This document shows positions 1,495 through 64,000 of a stretch of DNA of 64,000 nt, piece after piece. The DNA comes from Bacteroidetes bacterium GWF2_35_48 (GTDB taxonomy: Bacteria > Bacteroidota > Bacteroidia > Bacteroidales > GWF2-35-48), in NCBI GenBank assembly GCA_001769125.1, contig MEOG01000008.1:1-64000 (forward strand). Direction: 5' to 3'. Position 1 is the first letter of the stretch. Each line of letters begins with the position of its first letter. The position numbers were made by a program, and so were the translations under genes. The notes beneath the pieces are model-generated. The model made no database searches. It was not told where the DNA came from and was given only the letters and a program-made list of their open reading frames with translations.

Positions 1495-2736
1495 TTACAT
1501 TATCATCCCTGCTGCCATTGTTTCGTTGGTAACTTCATCAATTAAAATAAGGCTTCCGGTAATTTTATTTTTTATATAGGAATCAGTAAAAAGTGCTTTG
1601 CTTGTACGAATATCAACACAGGCAATGTCGTTCATGCCAATCTTTTTATCCTGTGTGTTTTTTGTAAGTGAATTGATATCCATTTTAAAAGAAACATCTT
1701 TGATAATACAACGAACTTCATTGCTTGTGTGTCGTACGATATATTTTCCATTTTGATTCATGGGTCTTTCATTAAACCAGCAAAGCATCATTTTAATATC
1801 CTGATTTTTTTCAGGCATCTCGTCTTTTTTTACAAGCATATCTCCCCTGCTTACATCAACATCATCTTCAAGGGTAATGCAAACAGATTCGCCTATATTA
1901 GCAGTTTTTATGCTTTCATTGTATATTGTAATTCCGGTAATTTTTGATTCAATTAAGTTGGGTAAAATAACTACTAGATCTCCTACTGAAATAGCCCCAC
2001 CTGCAAGCTGCCCTGCATATCCTCTGAAATCGTGAAATTTATCTGATTCTGGTCTGATGATATATTGTACAGGAAAGCGTGCAGGCAACTTTTCAGTATT
2101 ATTATTTACTTCTATTGTTTCAAGCATCTCTATCAGAGAAGATTCTTTGTACCATGGGGTGTGCTCTGATCTATTCACAACATTATCTCCATTCAATGCG
2201 CTGATGGGAATATAATGAACATTTTGTATGTTTAATTTTTCAGCAATTTCTACATAATTTTTCTTAATATTTTGAAAAATTTGTTCCGAAAAATTAACCA
2301 TATCCATTTTATTTATACATAAAATAATATGTTTAATCTGGAGTAGCGATGCGATATAAGAATGCCTGATTGTTTGTTCGGAAATTCCGTTTCGCGCATC
2401 AACAAGAATTAGAGCTAAATCTGCAGTAGAAGCTCCTGTTACCATATTACGTGTGTATTGAATATGACCGGGCGTATCTGCAATAATAAATTTGCGTTTT
2501 GGAGTTGCAAAATATCTGTAAGCAACATCAATGGTAATACCCTGTTCACGTTCAGCTTTCAGCCCGTCTGTAAGCAACGCAAGATTTATGTGTTCCTCTC
2601 CTTTTCTTTTGCTTGCAAGGTCAATTGCCTCAAGCTGATCCTCAAAAATTGCTTTGCTATCATATAATAAACGACCAATTAATGTGCTTTTGCCGTCATC
2701 AACACTGCCTGCTGTAGTAAAACGAAGTAAATTCAT
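1495..2736 (-). CDS. cysN: Sulfate adenylyltransferase subunit 1 (GTPase)
   Basis: CysN is the regulatory GTPase of ATP sulfurylase. It couples GTP hydrolysis to formation of adenosine 5'-phosphosulfate (APS) from sulfate and ATP by CysD. The G-protein motifs are intact: G1 GSVDDGKS at residues 10-17, G3 DTPGH at 87-91 and G4 NKMD at 142-145, followed by EF-Tu-like beta-barrel domains. At 413 residues it is a stand-alone CysN. There is no fused APS kinase (CysC), which agrees with an APS-reductase pathway. The gene starts 18 bases downstream of cysD, so the two are almost certainly co-transcribed. Confidence 0.96.
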   Translation of the reverse strand: MNLLRFTTAGSVDDGKSTLIGRLLYDSKAIFEDQLEAIDLASKRKGEEHINLALLTDGLKAEREQGITIDVAYRYFATPKRKFIIADTPGHIQYTRNMVTGASTADLALILVDARNGISEQTIRHSYIASLLQIKHIILCINKMDMVNFSEQIFQNIKKNYVEIAEKLNIQNVHYIPISALNGDNVVNRSEHTPWYKESSLIEMLETIEVNNNTEKLPARFPVQYIIRPESDKFHDFRGYAGQLAGGAISVGDLVVILPNLIESKITGITIYNESIKTANIGESVCITLEDDVDVSRGDMLVKKDEMPEKNQDIKMMLCWFNERPMNQNGKYIVRHTSNEVRCIIKDVSFKMDINSLTKNTQDKKIGMNDIACVDIRTSKALFTDSYIKNKITGSLILIDEVTNETMAAGMIM

Positions 2737-2754
2737 GATGCTTTGTTTATCGGT

Positions 2755-3648
2755 TTAAAAATAGCCTTCCACTTTTCGATCTTCCATTGCAGATTCAGAG
2801 CGTTTATCATCCCAGCGGCTGCCCCTTTCTGTAATGCGTGTTGCAGCAATTTCTTTAATAATATCTTCAAGATTATTGGCTTTTGATAAAGTTAAACCCG
2901 TACATGAAATATCACCAACTGTGCGGCATCGAACCTGTTTTACTTCAACTTTTTCGTTTGGTTTTAAATTCATAAAAGGAGCATAAGCAAGCCATACACC
3001 ATTGCGACAAAATGCTTCACGGATATGCGTATAATACAAACTGGGTAAAGCAATTTTTTCTTCATAAATATATTGCCAAACGTCCAGTTCTGTCCAGTTA
3101 CTAATAGGAAAAACCCGAAAATGTTCGCCCATATTTTTACGCCCATTGAAAATATTCCACAATTCCGGTCGCTGATTTTTAGGATTCCATTGTCCGAATT
3201 CATCACGATGGGAAAAAAATCGCTCTTTTGCCCTTGCTTTTTCTTCATCTCTTCTGCCACCGCCAACAGCAGCATCAATTTTATTTTTCTCAATTGCATC
3301 AAGCAATGTTACGGTTTGAAGTTTATTTCGGCTCGCATTGTAGCCTGTTTCTTCAACAACTTTTCCCGAATCAATGGTTTCCTGAACAGAACCGACTATT
3401 AAGCGCAGACCATGTTCCTTTACAAGATCATCTCTAAAATCAAGCGCTTCCTGAAAATTATGCCCTGTATCAATATGCAATAATGGGAACGGAATTTTAG
3501 TCGGATAAAATGCTTTCAAGGCAAGATGTACTAATACTATCGAATCTTTACCCCCTGAAAAAAGAATAGCAGGGTTTTGGAACTGCGCCGCTATTTCACG
3601 GAACACAAAAATTGATTCGTTTTCTAATGCTTTAAGATGTGAGGTCAT
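2755..3648 (-). CDS. cysD: Sulfate adenylyltransferase subunit 2
   Basis: CysD is the catalytic subunit of ATP sulfurylase, a PP-loop ATP pyrophosphatase that makes APS. The PP-loop SGGKDS is at residues 31-36. Typical family stretches such as FSHRDEFGQWNPKNQRPELW and the C-terminal RGSRWDDKRSESAMEDRK are present. The length of 297 residues is normal. The gene lies directly upstream of cysN. A 574-base repeat-filled gap separates it from cysH upstream, so the cluster may now be two transcription units. Confidence 0.97.
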   Translation of the reverse strand: MTSHLKALENESIFVFREIAAQFQNPAILFSGGKDSIVLVHLALKAFYPTKIPFPLLHIDTGHNFQEALDFRDDLVKEHGLRLIVGSVQETIDSGKVVEETGYNASRNKLQTVTLLDAIEKNKIDAAVGGGRRDEEKARAKERFFSHRDEFGQWNPKNQRPELWNIFNGRKNMGEHFRVFPISNWTELDVWQYIYEEKIALPSLYYTHIREAFCRNGVWLAYAPFMNLKPNEKVEVKQVRCRTVGDISCTGLTLSKANNLEDIIKEIAATRITERGSRWDDKRSESAMEDRKVEGYF

Positions 3649-3650
3649 TT

Positions 3651-3699
3651 TTATTTGAAAATTATTTGATTTGAAAATTATTTGATTTGAAGATTTGAA
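3651..3699. repeat. AT-rich short direct repeats upstream of cysD
   Basis: Two near-identical copies of a 17-base unit (gaaaattatttgattt) are followed by a degenerate third copy. The same words recur in inverted form at about 4158-4214 (cattttcaaattttcaaatt), flanking the family A element, and again at about 22085-22130. The gap 3649-4222 holds no gene; its ORF-like stretch at 3843-4091 is repeat sequence. Confidence 0.6.
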
Positions 3700-3756
3700 G
3701 ATTGTACGGTGTTATATGAATACAATATTTTATGTTCAAACCTGTATGCCGACAAG

Positions 3757-4144
3757 CTACCGTGTGGACACATCTTTTTCTTAACTGGATTTTGTCACAA
3801 AATTTGCATACTTATATTTTATTGCCAGGTTTAGCATAGGAATTGTGCAAATTTTCCGCCAAAATCTTTTTAATTATTATTTGTTTATACTCCGAGCTTC
3901 GCTCGGGGTTACAAATATTCGACTCCTACGGAGTCGTTTTTCTCACTTTATATCTGCCGTGGTCAGTCAGGAGTTCTGAAATTTGTGAAACCTGTCTGCC
4001 TGCCTGTTTACAACAGGTAAATCTGCCAGACAAGGCAGGTTCGTGTCATATATTAGGTTTAATTAATTTTCAGAGTAGGCATAATATTTAAAAAATATCA
4101 AACCCTCAATAAAAATACTTCGCATATTTGTGTCCACACGGTAG
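3757..4144 (-). mobile_element. Family A non-autonomous palindromic element, long copy
   Basis: The ends are perfect 16-bp inverted repeats (CTACCGTGTGGACACA at 3757-3772 and its complement at 4129-4144). A direct repeat TGCCGACAAG flanks it (3747-3756 and 4146-4155), as expected for a target duplication. Inside are two short hairpins, CCGAGC-TTC-GCTCGG and CGACTCC-TAC-GGAGTCG, and a conserved stretch reading gcaaattttccgccaaaat. A second, inverted copy lies at 11741-11947. Relative to that copy this one carries about 170 extra bases (roughly 3951-4122). No coding capacity is visible. Confidence 0.8.
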
Positions 4145-9422: not shown

Positions 9423-9436
9423 GGCAGACTTATTTA

Positions 9437-9601
9437 GTGTCCGTCCATAAAGTCCGATTTCTGCGTTATGCTTACATTTTAGATTAGTCATTTACGGAAG
9501 TAAACTCCTAATATAAAATGCTTCGCACGCATTTCGGCAAGCTCAATGTGTCACCTTGAACTCGAACTTTCTGAATCAGACACTGACATTATAGACTGTC
9601 T
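9437..9601 (+). mobile_element. Family C palindromic element, copy 1
   Basis: Imperfect inverted ends (GTGTCCGTCCATAAAGTC on the left) follow TTATTTA at 9430-9436; a diverged copy of that heptamer lies at 9602-9608. The core is GTCATTTAC-GGAA-GTAAACTCC, held between CATTTTAGATTA and TAATATAAAATG arms that pair. Copies 2 and 3 lie at 29766 and 57415. It fills most of the 307-base gap between the DUF4421 and AOR genes. The remainder (9610-9729) is AT-rich with degenerate tcaacattcaa repeats. Confidence 0.7.
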
Positions 9602-9729
9602 ATATTTATGCAGCGTAATAATTTAATCAATAATCAAAATTTCCATTTTTAAATTAAAAAAATTTCAAAACAACATTCAATATTCAACAAACAATAATCA
9701 ACATTCAACATTTAAAAACATTAAATCAA

Positions 9730-11607: not shown

Positions 11608-12045
11608 GTGCTTGCAAGAAAACGTCAATTTCTGCGTTACTCTCGACCTGAAAAACAGTCGTTTCGGCTTAGCTCACTTCGACTAGCTCAGCGCATCGCA
11701 ACGCATCGCATGTACATTAGTACACCTGTCTGCCGACAAGCTATCGTGTGGACACAAATATTGAAAAACGACTCCGGAGGAGTCGAATGTTTATAACCCC
11801 GAGCTCAAGCTCGGGGTATAAACGAATGATAATAAAAAGATTTTGGCGGAAAATTTGCACAATATTAATGTATAATCTGACAGTACAATACAATTATGCA
11901 AATTTTGTGACAAAATCAAGCTGATAAAAGATGTGTCCACACGGTAGCTGCCGACAAGGCAGGCTCCTGATTTTCAGGTCTTCGAAAGCCTGTCTGCCAG
12001 CAACAGCCAGGCAGGCCTTGAACTTGACGTTTTTTTTGCAAGCAC
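11608..12045 (+). mobile_element. Family B palindromic element, disrupted by nested insertions
   Basis: The ends GTGCTTGCAAGAAAACGTCAA and their near-complement at the right match the 42421 copy. The core words (GACCTGAAAA, AGTC, ATGTACATTAGTACAC, TCC, TTTTCAGGTC, CCTTGAACTTGACG) appear in the same order but are interrupted. A family F repeat splits GTC/AT at about 11663-11711. A small CTGTCTGCCGACAAGGCAGG palindrome containing family A splits ACAC/TCC. A further palindrome splits AAG/CCTTG near 11990-12017. It starts four bases after the AOR stop codon. Confidence 0.75.
11741..11947 (+). mobile_element. Family A non-autonomous palindromic element, short copy
   Basis: Terminal inverted repeats CTATCGTGTGGACACA and TGTGTCCACACGGTAG (15 of 16 matching) are flanked by TGCCGACAAG at 11731-11740 and 11949-11958. 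It is inverted relative to the 3757-4144 copy. The internal hairpins are kept with different loops (CGACTCC-GGA-GGAGTCG; CCCCGAGCT...AGCTCGGGG). It is inserted in a palindrome that itself interrupts a family B element. Confidence 0.8.
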
Positions 12046-29730: not shown

Positions 29731-29760
29731 AAAAGCTGCACAATGTGCAGCTTTTTTTTT
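29731..29760 (+). terminator. Intrinsic terminator of the YqgE gene
   Basis: AGCTGCAC-AAT-GTGCAGCT stem followed by about nine T residues, with an A-tract upstream that could let it work in both directions. Confidence 0.9.
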
Positions 29761-29765
29761 ATTTA

Positions 29766-29906
29766 GTGCTTGTCCATAAAGTCAATGTTTGAGGCAGAAT
29801 GTTCGAGTTCAAGGCTTGCGAAATAATAAAAATTTGGAGTTTACTGATGTAAATGACTTATTTTTATTATGAGCATAACGCAGAAATCGGACATTATGGA
29901 CAAACA
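29766..29906 (-). mobile_element. Family C palindromic element, copy 2
   Basis: Ends GTGCTTGTCCATAAAGTC and GACATTATGGACAAACA; exact 7-base flanks TTATTTA at 29759-29765 and 29907-29913. The right flank contains the stop codon of the minus-strand lipoprotein gene. Core GGAGTTTAC-TGAT-GTAAATGAC between paired arms ATAATAAAAAT/ATTTTTATTAT. Orientation is opposite to copy 1. Confidence 0.8.
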
Positions 29907-30353
29907 TTATTTAACAAGAGTCATTTTAATTTGTGAGCCACCCTGATCCATTGAAACTACTAATTTAGCATCAGTAAGTTCATCAACATTCAGTTTGTCT
30001 TCTTTTTCTCCCTGTTTAGTAGTGAGAATTTTTCCATCTTCACTGATAGCCCATGTGCCAGCTTCTGTTTTACCCTGGAATGTTGATTCAAAAGTTTTGT
30101 CTTCTTTAAAGTTCATTGTAGAACCTTTCATAGCTTCAACACCTTGTTTCATTCCTTCCATCATAGCTTCTTTCTGAGCTTCTTTCATACTGTCTGGAAA
30201 AGCAGCCAAAGCCTGGTTTACTGCTTCTTCAAGATTTGACATTTCAACATTGTCAATTTTCCAGGATCCAACAATTTTTTTATCAGGACCTGAACTACAT
30301 GATACGATAACCGCAATACTTAATGCAACAATAAAATACGCTAATTTTTTCAT
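29907..30353 (-). CDS. Lipocalin-like lipoprotein
   Basis: A 148-residue lipoprotein: signal peptide with lipobox ending IVSC. The mature part contains KKIVGSWKIDNVEM, a helical stretch rich in glutamate, alanine and methionine, and repeated strands FKEDKTFESTF, AGTWAISEDGKIL and KLVVSMDQGG. This is the layout of lipocalin-like 'GxW' domains common in Bacteroidota. No specific function can be given. Its stop codon lies inside the target duplication of a family C element. Confidence 0.72.
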   Translation of the reverse strand: MKKLAYFIVALSIAVIVSCSSGPDKKIVGSWKIDNVEMSNLEEAVNQALAAFPDSMKEAQKEAMMEGMKQGVEAMKGSTMNFKEDKTFESTFQGKTEAGTWAISEDGKILTTKQGEKEDKLNVDELTDAKLVVSMDQGGSQIKMTLVK

Positions 30354-42336: not shown

Positions 42337-42420
42337 ATTTTATTGTAAAATTTGTATTAATCTTCATGTGTCTATATACTTAGTTCTTTGGCTTACTGCT
42401 TTTTGATTATTTGTTATTTA

Positions 42421-42582
42421 GTGCCTGCAAGAAAACATCAATTTCATCGTTACGCTTGACCTGAAAAGTAGTCATGTACATTAGTACACTCCTAATTTTC
42501 AGGTCTTCGCAAGCCTTGAACTTGATGTTTTCTTGCAGGCACATACATTGTGAGCAAAAAACATGAGTTTTCTTGCTGGCAC
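42421..42582 (+). mobile_element. Family B palindromic element, intact copy
   Basis: A perfect 21-bp inverted repeat (GTGCCTGCAAGAAAACATCA + A) bounds 42421-42542. A second copy of the right end (GTTTTCTTGCTGGCAC) at 42567-42582 is followed by TATTTA, matching the TTATTTA on the left (42414-42420), so 42582 is the likelier outer border. Inside, GACCTGAAAA (42458-42467) pairs with TTTTCAGGTC (42496-42505) around the core AGTCATGTAC-ATTA-GTACACTCC. It occupies most of the gap 42283-42696; no gene is seen there. Confidence 0.8.
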
Positions 42583-42696
42583 TATTTATACTTAATACAA
42601 TATAATCTGAAAAAAAGTAAAAAAAAGAAAATTAACAAAATAATATAAAAAACCGAACGTTAATTTGTTGTTATCATAAATTAAATAAATTTGCCT

Positions 42697-43748: not shown

Positions 43749-43831
43749 TAATTTTTTTTTGCGAAAATACGATTTATTATCAAAACAATATTTTTTTATA
43801 TTAATAAGTTGGTCTATTTAAATAATTTTTG

Positions 43832-44014
43832 GTCGGAAGTCAGGCAGTCGGCAGTCGGAGAAGTCGGAGAAGTCGGCAGTCGGCAGTCGGAGAAGTCGGC
43901 AGTCGGCAGTCGGAGCAGTCGGCAGTCGGCAGTCGGAGAAGTCGGCAGTCGGCAGTCAGTCATACTGTAGACTGTAGACTGTAGACTGTAGACTGTAGAC
44001 TGTAGACTGTAGAC
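43832..44014. repeat. Two adjacent tandem repeat arrays
   Basis: 43832-43957 is an array of GTCGGCA and GTCGGAGAA units. 43964-44012 is seven perfect ACTGTAG heptamers followed by two further bases. Both lie in the 399-base gap between the divergent lgt and fabD; the rest of the gap is AT-rich, with the fabD promoter. Confidence 0.9.
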
Positions 44015-57233: not shown

Positions 57234-57414
57234 GGTTATTCGACAAAAATAGTGGAAGAGCTTATAAATAAATTGAAAGTATAACAAATCTTGGAATATC
57301 GTATTACCCGATCTGCTGTACCGTGATGATTTATTTTATATGCCAATAATATTTTACGAAAAAGTACGGCATAAACCAAAGGTAGAAATATTAATACGTC
57401 CTTCAGTCTATTTA

Positions 57415-57637
57415 TTGTCCGTCCATAAAGTCAGTGTTTGGTTCAGAATGTTCGAGCGTTGCAGTGAGCCAGCCGAACTGAGCAAGCCTGCCTTGCCGGT
57501 AGGCAGGGCTTTCGCAGTGTTGAAAACCAAGGAGTTTACTTTTGTAAATGACTGTTTTCAACACACGGCATACTGCTGGTAGCAGTATGAGCGAGCTGGT
57601 GCGTTGTAACGCAGCTATCGGACATTATGGACAAACA
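57415..57637 (-). mobile_element. Family C palindromic element, copy 3, with extra palindromes
   Basis: Exact 7-base flanks CTATTTA at 57408-57414 and 57638-57644. Ends TTGTCCGTCCATAAAGTC and GACATTATGGACAAACA. Core GGAGTTTAC-TTTT-GTAAATGAC between GTGTTGAAAAC and GTTTTCAACAC arms. Additional hairpins (CATACTGCT-GGT-AGCAGTATG; gcctgccttgccggtaggcagg) make it longer than copies 1 and 2. Confidence 0.8.
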
Positions 57638-57666
57638 CTATTTAACTATTTCACTTTGGTATTAGA

Positions 57667-60038: not shown

Positions 60039-63000
60039 TTACCTAATCAACGTAACATCACCTTTTTTCTCAATCACTTCTCCATTTTCAAATATAGCTT
60101 TTACGTAATACACAAAAACGGCGGAGTTTAAAGGCTTGTCTTTATAGTTGCCATCCCACCCAAAATTTTTGTCTTTTGTTTCAAAAACTTTATTACCGAT
60201 ACGGTCAAAAATCATCATGTCGAGTTCTACAATTCTTTTGCCTCGCACATATAAAACATCATTTACACCATTAGCATCTGGTGTAAATATTGTAGGAATA
60301 AACAACTCATTACAGAGAATAGTTGATGCATTAATAGTGTATGTTTCCATTTCAAAACAATTCGATCCATCTGTTACGGTTACTGTATATACGCCAGATG
60401 CGAGGGAACTTATTGTTGCTGTCGTTTCACCATTGCTCCATGCATAAAAATAGGGCACTGTACCTCCGATAATTGTAAGTACTAACCTGCCATCACTTCT
60501 GTCTTCGCAAGACTCATGGTTTATCGTAGCTGCTATCTGTAAAGCTGTTGATGCCATTACCTGTACCGGCTGAATATTACTACCACAGCCATTCCAGGCC
60601 ATAATATAATACGTACCGGCTGTTGTTACATTTGCGGGATTTGTTAGTGGAATCAAAGCTGAATTATCCATCCAATAACTTAATTCTAAAACCTGCGAAC
60701 TTCCCAAAGTAATAGCCGAAGATGTGAGATTAACAGAACCACCGGAGCAAACAACACCCGGATTATGTATTGTCAGTGTTGGTGGCACTGTACTGATATT
60801 TACTGTTACTGAACCTATGTCTGTTCCACAGGTATTTATTGCTTGTATATAATATGTTCCACTCTGTGAAATAGCTTGTGGATTTACCAAAGGGATTGTA
60901 GCACCTGCATCCATCCAGTAAGAGAGCGCGTAAATTCCTGAACTGCCGGAAGTAATAGTATCTGCGGTTAAATCAACCTGTGCCGGAAAACAAGCTGCTG
61001 CAGGAGGGTTAATAACCAATTCGGGTACAGATGGGAATACATTTACTGGTACTTCCTGAGAAGTTGTTCCGCAGGTATTTGTTGCCTGAATATAATAGAG
61101 ACCGCTGATAGTAACAAAATCTGGTGTGTTTAACGGAATGGTCAAAGCGCTGTTTGCCCAATAGCTTATTGTTTCTATTTGTGTGCTACCACTTGTAACG
61201 GCAGGGGCAGTCAGATCAACAAATAAAGGGGCGCATACCGGGGCGGGGTTGTTAATGACAAGTAAGGGCAACCCTGTATTTATGGTTACATTCACAGCCT
61301 CAATATCTGTTCCGCAGGCATTGATTGCCTGGATGTAATATATGCCAGACAAACTAATAGAATCAGGATTTGCAAGCGGACTAAATGCTCCGGCATCTGT
61401 CCAGTAAGAAATAGAAACAATCCCACTGCTTCCGGCAGTGACTGCTGCTGCTGTTATATCAACAAGAGTATTACAAACAGAAGCAGGATTATTAATGACA
61501 AGAACAGGTGCAGAAATATTGTAATACACATTAACCGAAGCTGTATCGCTCCCACAGGTATTAGATGCAACAATGTAATAAATACCGGATGTTGTTATCG
61601 AATTTGGGTTAGTGAGTGAAATTGTAGCTCCCGCGTCTGTCCAGTAAGAAAGAGTTAAAATGTAGGAACTGCCATTTGTTATTGCAGCATCCGTAATATC
61701 AACTGCCGTGCTGCATGAAGACGCAGGGTCTGTAACAAGAAGTATGGGAATATCCTGGCTGACAGTCATTGTAACAGTATCCGAAGAAGCAGGATTTCCA
61801 GTTATACAAATTGCATCGGATGTCAATACGCAATAAATTTCATCTGCATCTGATAGCAAATTATTAGTGTATTCATTGTTGCTTGTTCCGACTGTTGCTC
61901 CATTCAAATACCACTGGTATTGCGGGTTTGAACCTCCATTGACTGGTGTTGCAGTAAATGTAACATTTGTGCCATCGCAAATACTTGTCGCATCAGCAGC
62001 AACAGTTACGCTTACCGGAAGATTTGAACTTACAGTCATTGTAACAGTGTTTGATGTAGCCGGATTTCCTGTCGCGCATGTTGCATCGGATGTCAGCACA
62101 CAATAAATTTCATCTGCATCTGAAAGCAAATTATTAGTGTATTCATTGCTGTTTGTTCCGACTGTCGCTCCATTCAAATACCACTGGTATTGCGGGTTTA
62201 CGCCTTCGTTGCTTGGTGTTGCTGTAAATGTAACATAAGTGCCATCACAAATAGTTGTCGCATCAGCAGCAACAGTTACGCTTACCGGAAGATTTGAACT
62301 TACAGTCATTGTAACAGTGTTTGATGTAGCCGGATTTCCTGTCGCGCATGTTGCATCGGATGTCAGCACACAATAAATTTCATCTGCATCTGAAAGCAAA
62401 TTATTAGTGTATGTATTACTACTTGTTCCGACGGTCGCACCATTCAAATACCACTGATATTGCGGGTTTACGCCTTCGTTGCTTGGTGTTGCTGTAAATG
62501 TAACATAAGTGCCATCACAAATAGTTGTAGCATCAGCAGCAATGGTTACGCTTACCGGAAGATTTGAACTTACAGTCATTGTAACAGTATCCGAAGTAGC
62601 AGGATTTCCAGTTATACAAGTTGCATCGGATGTAAGTACGCAATAAATTTCATCTGCATTCGTAAGAGCTGCATTAGTATATGTACTGTTGCTTGTCCCG
62701 ACTGTTGCACCATTCAAATACCACTGGTATTGCGGATTTGGACCTTCGTTTATAGGAGTTGCAGTAAATGTAACATTTGTCCCATCGCAAATTGTTGTGG
62801 CATCAGCAGAGATGGTTACGCTAACAGGAAGATTTGAATTTACCGTCATTGTAACCGTATCCGAAGAAGCAGGATTTCCAGTTATACAAGTTGCATCGGA
62901 TGTAAGTACGCAATAAATTTCATCTGCATCTGATAGCAAATTATTAGTGTATGTATTACTACTTGTTCCGACTGTTGCACCATTCAAATACCACTGGTAT

Positions 63001-64000
63001 TGCGGATTTACGCCTTCGTTGCCTGGAGTTGCTGTAAATGTAACATTTGTCCCATCACAAATAGTTGTAGCATCAGCAGCGACAGTTACGCTAACCGGAA
63101 GATTAGAACTTATAGTCATTGTAACAGTATCCGAAGAAGCAGGATTTCCAGTTGTACAAATTGCATCGGATGTAAGTACGCAATAAATTTCATCTGCATT
63201 CGTAAGAGCTGAATTAGTATATGTACTGTTGCTTGTCCCGACTGTTGCACCATTCAAATACCACTGGTATTGCGGATTTGAACCTTCGTTTATAGGAGTT
63301 GCCGTAAATGTAACATTTGTTCCATAACAAACAGGGTTGTTATCTGGTGCAACTGTAATGCTGACAGGGCTAATGACTGTCGGTTTCACTAAAACACTTT
63401 TACATTCTGTAATACCACAAGTACCTTCTGCACGAACATAAAAAGTTGTAGTTCCGGAAACATTTAGTGAAAGAGGATTTCCTGTTCCTACATGTGTTGA
63501 TCCACATCCGTCTGTGTACCATTCCCACGAAGCTCCTGTTCCAAGCGAGCCACCATGCACGGTTAGTGTCACAGATTCTCCTTCGCAAACCGGATCCGGA
63601 TTAAAGCTTATTGAATCTGCTGCAACAGATGGGACACAACTGAATAAAGCAAAGGGCGTACTTGTGAAATCATCCCAGTTTACTATTGTCAGACTGCTTA
63701 AAACCGGAGATGAATTATTTACAGGATTTACGGTTCCCGTATTTTCCCATTGATCTGATGGAGTATCATCCCAATGGGCGATTCCAAAAAACGTACCGTC
63801 ATCAACATCATCAAAATATATGCTTATTGATGCTGCGTCACTACCTGCACTACGATTTATCTTATGATAAAATTTATCATTAATATTTCCGGCTGTTCCA
63901 TCTGTAATGCTCCTGTCAAATCCTTCTGTTGTTGCATCTGCATTTGCCATTCTAACAGTATATGTATTGCTGGCAGAAGTTGTGGGAGTTACTTCAACAG
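60039..64000 (-). CDS. Type B T9SS surface protein with two repeat series (5' end outside window)
   Basis: The frame stays open to the right edge (upstream codons read VEVTPTTSASNTYTVRM), so the N-terminus and signal peptide are missing and the ATG at 63950 is internal. Visible part, about 1320 residues: a beta domain; an Ig-like module (PVCEGESVTLTVHGGS); six 90-residue repeats (ICDGTNVTFTATP...NPQYQWYLNGATVG...DEIYCVLTSDA); five repeats of about 80 residues (SYWTDAG...GIYYIQA.NTCG); one SprB-type repeat (CEDRSDGRLVLTIIGG); and the gliding-type C-terminal domain (PTIFTPDANGVNDVL, IFDRIGNKVF). Repeated cysteines probably give one disulfide per Ig-like repeat. The PorP/SprF gene follows it. 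Confidence 0.9.
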   Translation of the reverse strand, partial: VEVTPTTSASNTYTVRMANADATTEGFDRSITDGTAGNINDKFYHKINRSAGSDAASISIYFDDVDDGTFFGIAHWDDTPSDQWENTGTVNPVNNSSPVLSSLTIVNWDDFTSTPFALFSCVPSVAADSISFNPDPVCEGESVTLTVHGGSLGTGASWEWYTDGCGSTHVGTGNPLSLNVSGTTTFYVRAEGTCGITECKSVLVKPTVISPVSITVAPDNNPVCYGTNVTFTATPINEGSNPQYQWYLNGATVGTSNSTYTNSALTNADEIYCVLTSDAICTTGNPASSDTVTMTISSNLPVSVTVAADATTICDGTNVTFTATPGNEGVNPQYQWYLNGATVGTSSNTYTNNLLSDADEIYCVLTSDATCITGNPASSDTVTMTVNSNLPVSVTISADATTICDGTNVTFTATPINEGPNPQYQWYLNGATVGTSNSTYTNAALTNADEIYCVLTSDATCITGNPATSDTVTMTVSSNLPVSVTIAADATTICDGTYVTFTATPSNEGVNPQYQWYLNGATVGTSSNTYTNNLLSDADEIYCVLTSDATCATGNPATSNTVTMTVSSNLPVSVTVAADATTICDGTYVTFTATPSNEGVNPQYQWYLNGATVGTNSNEYTNNLLSDADEIYCVLTSDATCATGNPATSNTVTMTVSSNLPVSVTVAADATSICDGTNVTFTATPVNGGSNPQYQWYLNGATVGTSNNEYTNNLLSDADEIYCVLTSDAICITGNPASSDTVTMTVSQDIPILLVTDPASSCSTAVDITDAAITNGSSYILTLSYWTDAGATISLTNPNSITTSGIYYIVASNTCGSDTASVNVYYNISAPVLVINNPASVCNTLVDITAAAVTAGSSGIVSISYWTDAGAFSPLANPDSISLSGIYYIQAINACGTDIEAVNVTINTGLPLLVINNPAPVCAPLFVDLTAPAVTSGSTQIETISYWANSALTIPLNTPDFVTISGLYYIQATNTCGTTSQEVPVNVFPSVPELVINPPAAACFPAQVDLTADTITSGSSGIYALSYWMDAGATIPLVNPQAISQSGTYYIQAINTCGTDIGSVTVNISTVPPTLTIHNPGVVCSGGSVNLTSSAITLGSSQVLELSYWMDNSALIPLTNPANVTTAGTYYIMAWNGCGSNIQPVQVMASTALQIAATINHESCEDRSDGRLVLTIIGGTVPYFYAWSNGETTATISSLASGVYTVTVTDGSNCFEMETYTINASTILCNELFIPTIFTPDANGVNDVLYVRGKRIVELDMMIFDRIGNKVFETKDKNFGWDGNYKDKPLNSAVFVYYVKAIFENGEVIEKKGDVTLIR
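61761..63370 (-). repeat. Six tandem 270-base coding repeats
   Basis: The units are in frame and exactly 270 bases apart (the same cttaccggaagatttgaact word occurs at 62011 and 62281). Inner units are nearly identical at the DNA level, including silent positions, while outer units differ more. This points to recent unequal crossing-over or gene conversion. Confidence 0.9.

Follow-up and report, generated by a model that had tools for sequence, protein, structure and literature searches.

The segment at positions 42421-42582 raises the question of what keeps one short hairpin motif constant while the stem around it is replaced. It lies in a window of 64,000 nucleotides (the whole stretch analysed), which corresponds to contig C8; the assembly totals 6.0 Mb in 142 contigs. 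The original prediction, made from the letters alone, described copies at 42421, 9437, 29766 and 57415 that keep an inner motif, with outer stems that differ completely and still pair. In this study, all four cores were located where it had placed them, and the quoted stems are present and pair. The hairpin is real, but its setting had been missed. Each of the four cores is the centre of a mini-transposon (MITE) of 140-225 bp, with terminal repeats, target duplications of the form TANNTA and, in the genome, an ordinary DDE transposase. Reading of the flanks identified the 6-bp target duplication TATTTA on both sides of all four MITEs. The segment 42421-42582 is exactly one whole MITE, more than a hairpin.

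The window copies belong to two families by their ends (Table 1). Family B (42421) starts with GTGCCTGCAAGAAAAC, and family C (9437, 29766 and 57415) starts with GTGTTTGTCCATAATGTC or a closely similar sequence. Going from the left end towards the centre, the outer stem is formed by the left end paired with an internal inverted copy of the same end. This is followed by the unpaired conserved sequences TGCGTT and GCCTTG and then by a variable stem, and innermost are the loop GTCA/CTCC and an apical stem, TNTAC-4 nt-GTANA. The parts of the family-B MITE are, in order, the left end GTGCCTGCAAGAAAAC, the core, the inverted internal left-end copy (ending at 42542), a spacer and the right end GTTTTCTTGCTGGCAC. 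Since the internal inverted end is followed by a short spacer and then by the true right end, each MITE contains three end copies. Unpaired bases next to the hairpin had been proposed to look like a recognition signature. This was borne out and could be refined to a 3x3 loop, TCA/CTC, with a nearly invariant closing G-C, and to a second conserved unpaired motif pair, TGCGTT and GCCTTG, outside the stem. The predicted joint change of both inner arms was confirmed for TGTAC/GTACA and TTTAC/GTAAA, and TATAC/GTATA was found in other copies. In a decayed fifth copy (11608), TTTCG...CATCG is inserted in the GTC/AT loop of the core.

Table 1. Mini-transposons and their parts in the window. Bit scores refer to covariance model R1.
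Feature	Position	Strand	Evidence and remarks
Complete family-B MITE	42421..42582	+	Sequence; length 162, terminal match 13/14
Left target duplication TATTTA of family-B MITE	42415..42420	.	Sequence
Right target duplication TATTTA of family-B MITE	42583..42588	.	Sequence
Conserved core GTCATGTACATTAGTACACTCC of family-B MITE	42471..42492	+	R1 99.6 bits over 42433-42534
Family-C MITE, right end decayed	9437..9602	+	Core 9487-9508 (+); R1 73.3 bits
TATTTA around family-C MITE 9437..9602	9431-9436 and 9603-9608		
Family-C MITE	29766..29907	-	Core 29836-29857 (-); R1 95.5 bits
TATTTA around family-C MITE 29766..29907	29760-29765 and 29908-29913		
Family-C MITE with two extra nested palindromes	57415..57638	-	Core 57531-57552 (-); R1 50.2 bits; nested palindrome (L008)
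TATTTA around family-C MITE 57415..57638	57409-57414 and 57639-57644		
Family-B copy, decayed (left end and half of the core)	11608..11728	+	R1 13.5 bits, E 1

Other repeats were also seen in the window. An inverted-repeat pair at 3776-3942 and 11763-11929 (97 and 42 nt), with GACTCC..GGAGTC and CCGAGC..GCTCGG palindromes, is an unrelated repeat family. Short tandem repeats of the AGTCGG type are present in the intergenic region 43830-43976, and 270-bp tandem repeats at 61759-63368 lie inside a 1303-aa reading frame (60039-63950).

We examined the enzymes that may move these elements. A 443-aa transposase gene was found in the home genome (L059:2481-3812, contig C133) between GTGTCTGTCCATAA ends, with TAATTA on both sides. 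This IS spans about 2388-4029 and has no core inside. The protein scored 332 bits against the NCBIfam ISNCY model NF033593 (cut-off 325) and matched Pfam DDE_Tnp_1. The family-C terminal inverted repeats match the ends of the IS, and the MITE copies and the IS have the TANNTA duplication in common (TATTTA in the window copies, TAATTA in the IS). Judged by common ends, duplication type and transposase family, family C can be assigned to the MITEs of an ISNCY-family IS. Because an ISNCY transposase gene occurs with the same ends and the TANNTA duplication, the movement of family C would be ordinary, and by analogy family B would likewise be moved by an ISNCY-family transposase. An autonomous family-B partner was not recovered in the home genome; an IS-like end was found only at contig ends (L249, L250), and these sequences are probably the ends of that partner.

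The ends are of other types elsewhere. A gammaproteobacterium with 172 copies has MITE ends GTAACTATTCAGC and 8-bp duplications, and an interrupted IS66 transposase gene was found behind the GTAACTATTCAGC end. By these ends, duplications and this gene, its copies are classed as IS66-type MITEs. In the home genome, a chimeric MITE (L050:490-720) combines a family-C left end with a family-B right end; it has a single core, at or in which the two parts recombined. The IS66-type ends and the chimeric MITE together indicate that ends and core are separable modules. Four elements have GAGACC(T/C)..TGCAC ends, which may be IS5-like, and 13 elements of gut Bacteroidales start with GGTGTGTCATAA. In a strict joint automated test, inverted ends together with a duplication of at least 5 bp were detected in 51 of the 161 elements with sufficient flank. 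Among those 51, the MITE-type elements of Bacteroidota had TANNTA duplications and those of the gammaproteobacterium had duplications of 8 bp; a few others lack MITE-type ends and probably pair by chance.

Further genomic copies, which the original prediction had called for, are numerous. Genome copy counts were taken from pattern searches. The exact core GTCATNTACN4GTANACTCC (GTCATNTACNNNNGTANACTCC) gave 85 matches in the home genome, whereas the reversed pattern gave 0, so the number is far above what chance would produce. When copies were sought through their ends instead, some had decayed cores (for example ATCA..CTTC, CTCA..CTCC and GTCG..CTCC), and from some MITEs the core was wholly missing. 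Other short palindromes are nested in home-genome MITEs at recurrent points, with 13 and 8 copies between GC and C(C)TTG, 8 and 6 copies just inside the left end, and 5 between GTC and AT. These palindromes, of four or five types, are repeatedly inserted at the same internal MITE loops (between GC and CTTG, between GTC and AT, and after CCGA). These recurrent insertions suggest that hairpin loops act as insertion targets. In a minimal 40-bp element (L252:2132-2171), two family-B ends directly abut head to head.

We then asked whether the folded form is maintained. RNAalifold on a MAFFT alignment gave the inner stem only because arm lengths vary, and a covariance model with a hand-set structure (R1) was used instead, which aligns 114 copies. 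The model recovered the four intact window copies at 50-100 bits. Across 113 distinct copies, two-sided changes were found in 23 of 25 base pairs. The covariation score was 0.414 vs. 0.121 for shuffled alignments, and paired cells made up 81% vs. 60% when shuffled and 26-45% with slid partners. As this alignment was fitted to the structure, an alignment-free arm-swap test carries more weight. Swapping arms between lineages destroyed the pairing when taken over 59 clusters (own -7.8 vs. swapped -2.7 kcal/mol), and the own partner gave the best pairing in 24 of them. The invariance of the GTCA/CTCC loop is partly ascertained because the loop is part of the search pattern. The outer-loop words TGCGTT and GCCTTG, which lie outside that pattern, were both found near the core in 18/47 clusters vs. 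1/47 shifted windows. The covariation shows that selection acts on pairing and on the sequence of the loops to maintain the module, as had been proposed for the folded form.

Since the fold could reside in either strand, the two were folded alone. The strand as first read pairs, but it is probably not the folding strand: the opposite strand was more stable in 49 of 52 clusters (lineages), with energies of -36.0 vs. -25.9 kcal/mol with RNA and -17.4 vs. -14.4 kcal/mol with DNA parameters. The constant core contributes part of this asymmetry, as its complement, GGAG/TGAC, permits tandem G-A and G-U pairs. When the core was swapped for a neutral apex, the strand excess persisted. With RNA energies, it stood above composition controls (1.47 vs. 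0.45, SD 0.26; 2.24 vs. 1.13, SD 0.34). With DNA parameters the excess above composition was weak, and base composition explains part of the asymmetry. In the model-based alignment, C-T mismatches far outnumbered A-G mismatches on the strand as first read (56:6 to 106:12); these C-T mismatches are G-A on the other strand. These folding results are moderate evidence, and they suggest that the single strand opposite to the one first read may be the functional form.

A structured RNA is unlikely, but it survives best among the alternatives. In this case, the module would be transcribed from neighbouring genes and act as a protein-binding, processing or attenuation element, as in other bacterial MITEs. 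The very favourable RNA fold of the opposite strand and its loops fit this explanation, and so does the position of the cores. Sites between convergent genes outnumber those between divergent genes (37 vs. 16), and the median distance from core to gene is shorter to 3' ends (117) than to 5' ends (186). However, the bias in core strand relative to neighbouring genes was not significant (sense 52, antisense 37). G-T and A-C mismatches in the variable stem were about equal on either strand, in an early count and again on the model-based alignment, so there is no simple RNA signature; this absence of a G-U excess over A-C argues against RNA selection. A search of Rfam 15 gave no match at the gathering score, and below it only generic long-hairpin matches.

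It is decidedly unlikely that no selection is involved and that template-switch (quasi-palindrome) correction keeps the palindromes perfect, with the core reflecting the shared ancestry of recombining MITEs. MITEs do recombine, as the chimeric element demonstrates, and other palindromes are nested in them. However, such correction would erase unpaired loops, yet the loops persist across phyla while the stems turn over. Strand asymmetry beyond composition is also not expected, and neither a symmetric cruciform nor template-switch correction would predict it.

The core is not confined to the home genome. Matches were gathered by a GTDB genome scan, and the loci were then read. Among the matches listed, the same nested anatomy was found in Bacteroidales, Flavobacteriales, Saprospiraceae, Gammaproteobacteria, Campylobacterota and Lentisphaerae (Lentisphaerota), and in single genomes labelled Cloacimonadota, Chlorobiota and Clostridia. 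The spread is patchy. The core was present in 25/198 genomes of the home order, and in an even sample of the home phylum it was found in 1/395, which was the home genome. It occurred in 3/398 genomes in the phylum of the gammaproteobacterial probe and in 3/150 in that of the Sulfurimonas probe, and the probe genome alone was positive among 299 in the phylum of the Clostridia MAG. The highest copy numbers were 172 and 144 per genome, and the carriers include the cultured species Rikenella microfusus. Of 147 classifiable copies, 142 are intergenic, and of the 5 genic ones 3 are chance viral matches. Plasmids and phages searched with the 124-bp hairpin part of the MITE gave no match.

In some groups copies are few, and single-copy hairpins in Campylobacterota, Kangiella, Pseudomonas and similar genomes might be unrelated to the MITE cores (convergent or inherited) and match the 16-base pattern by chance. 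Those genomes hold 1-3 copies, and 4 matches in 2.9 million viral contigs were rejected as chance, being in coding DNA and having no stems. However, most of the low-copy hairpins show the nested arrangement described above and reach 39-72 bits under the covariance model, whereas the reversed pattern gave zero matches in every genome sampled. We therefore regard this explanation as highly unlikely.

Some loci have other arrangements. In a Lentisphaerae genome (L213:1479-2128), a 110-bp unit is repeated in tandem 5.9 times; each unit has a core, and the array lies directly downstream of an apparent V-type ATPase membrane-subunit gene. At L080, L118, L121, L135 and L163, cores are right beside tRNA-like sequence, and no MITE ends were recognisable by eye.

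A linked RAYT had been suggested for the hairpins, and this part of the original prediction was not supported. The home genome encodes Y1 transposases, none of them beside a core. Among the core-bearing loci scanned, a RAYT was near the core only at L151, about 3 kb away. Y1_Tnp is entirely absent from three core-rich genomes, G594 (30 copies), G608 (11) and G597 (8), and no core occurs in a same-genus species that has 7 Y1 genes. Since core-rich genomes exist without any Y1 transposase, RAYT linkage is not supported. A RAYT-like gene (153 aa) at L034:1140-2150 has different repeats of its own (GTAGTTCCTACGGAACTAC-like) and adjoins a truncated family-C MITE. A REP/REPIN-like hairpin, mobilised by a RAYT or another transposase of the HUH (Y1) type that reads the GTC tag on single-stranded DNA, with the MITE ends secondary, would fit the tag-plus-hairpin look, the single-strand folding asymmetry and the RAYT genes in 27 of 34 genomes tested, but it is largely refuted by this distribution and by target duplications, which Y1 enzymes do not make, and is now barely credible.

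Comparison with known systems points the same way. Previous reports described GTAG REPs and REPINs with RAYTs as imperfect hairpins, present between genes in many copies, in which an unpaired tetranucleotide next to the stem is invariant (PMC3733652, PMC2817692). The elements here share that look, but they have no terminal GTAG; the tag is R-GTC and internal. In addition, they have target duplications and three nested stems, and they show no RAYT linkage, whether beside the core or, in the three core-rich genomes named above, anywhere in the genome. CGTC-tagged REPs, including Neisseria dRS3, have a terminal tag, an 8-9 bp stem and a CCA tail, and occur in several phyla including Bacteroidetes with no dedicated transposase known (PMC3733652). 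They are the nearest in look among known things, as judged from sequence: GTC beside a stem starting AT, a 4-base loop, CC on the 3' side and a multi-phylum spread. However, a terminal unpaired CGTC, an 8-9 bp stem starting AT and a CCA tail were not found; here the tag is embedded in a longer stem, the apical stem has 5 bp (or 6, with a bulge), the tail CTCC falls within stem 2, and the element as a whole is a MITE. The two groups may be distantly related.

Bacterial MITEs mobilised in trans (NEMIS/Correia, ERIC, RUP and MITECca01) resemble the present elements in being short, non-coding and mostly intergenic, with terminal inverted repeats, target duplications and an autonomous partner IS. 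Those MITEs are linked to a single IS family or limited to a narrow range of hosts, whereas here one structured internal core is combined with two or more unrelated kinds of IS end, occurs in several phyla and shows compensatory evolution. The original prediction knew of no named family with this pattern, and none was found in Rfam or, by sequence words, in open-access papers. Open-access full texts searched by sequence words and topic, a set without most subscription papers and ISfinder, held no description of the shared core; an earlier description of single MITE families is possible. Eukaryotic CORE-SINEs also combine a conserved central domain with exchangeable ends that recruit different enzymes; they are retroposons moved by LINEs, unlike the present DNA transposons, which would be moved by DDE transposases. 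Integron attC sites, moved by integrases, also fold from a single (bottom) strand, in which unpaired bases are conserved while the stems vary. No attC R'/R'' boxes were seen by eye in the core alignment.

Taken together, the core is probably a structure-recognised single-stranded module, central in a group of MITEs with interchangeable ends. A DDE transposase of the ISNCY family, encoded at another genomic site, would cut and paste anything with its terminal repeats, duplicating the TANNTA target. Inside the ends, the module would form a three-storey foldback, with the outer stem, the TGCGTT/GCCTTG loop, the variable stem, the GTCA/CTCC loop and the small apical hairpin. Ends and core would be exchangeable modules, with the module common to MITEs with unrelated ends in several phyla. 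It would most likely work as the single strand complementary to that first read, as single-stranded DNA or RNA. A putative host or transposon factor may recognise the folded strand and help the element to persist or multiply; a search for a core-recognising factor found none. More tentatively, and with some doubt, the module may represent an undescribed class of mobile folded nucleic acid that spans phyla. It would be a hairpin recognised as a single strand, able to recruit the ends of any IS present (ISNCY, IS66 and perhaps IS5-like), with its own putative recognising protein, as a bacterial counterpart of CORE-SINEs.

MITEs are usually regarded as deleted relics of one IS. Here, the middle is conserved across phyla and the ends, which decide the transposase, are swapped. 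A conserved middle implies a selected core function and a putative binding partner, and the core offers a defined sequence and structure that could be used to fish for that partner. Their clearly modular build may also make it possible to study how non-autonomous elements in bacteria switch from one mobilising enzyme to another.
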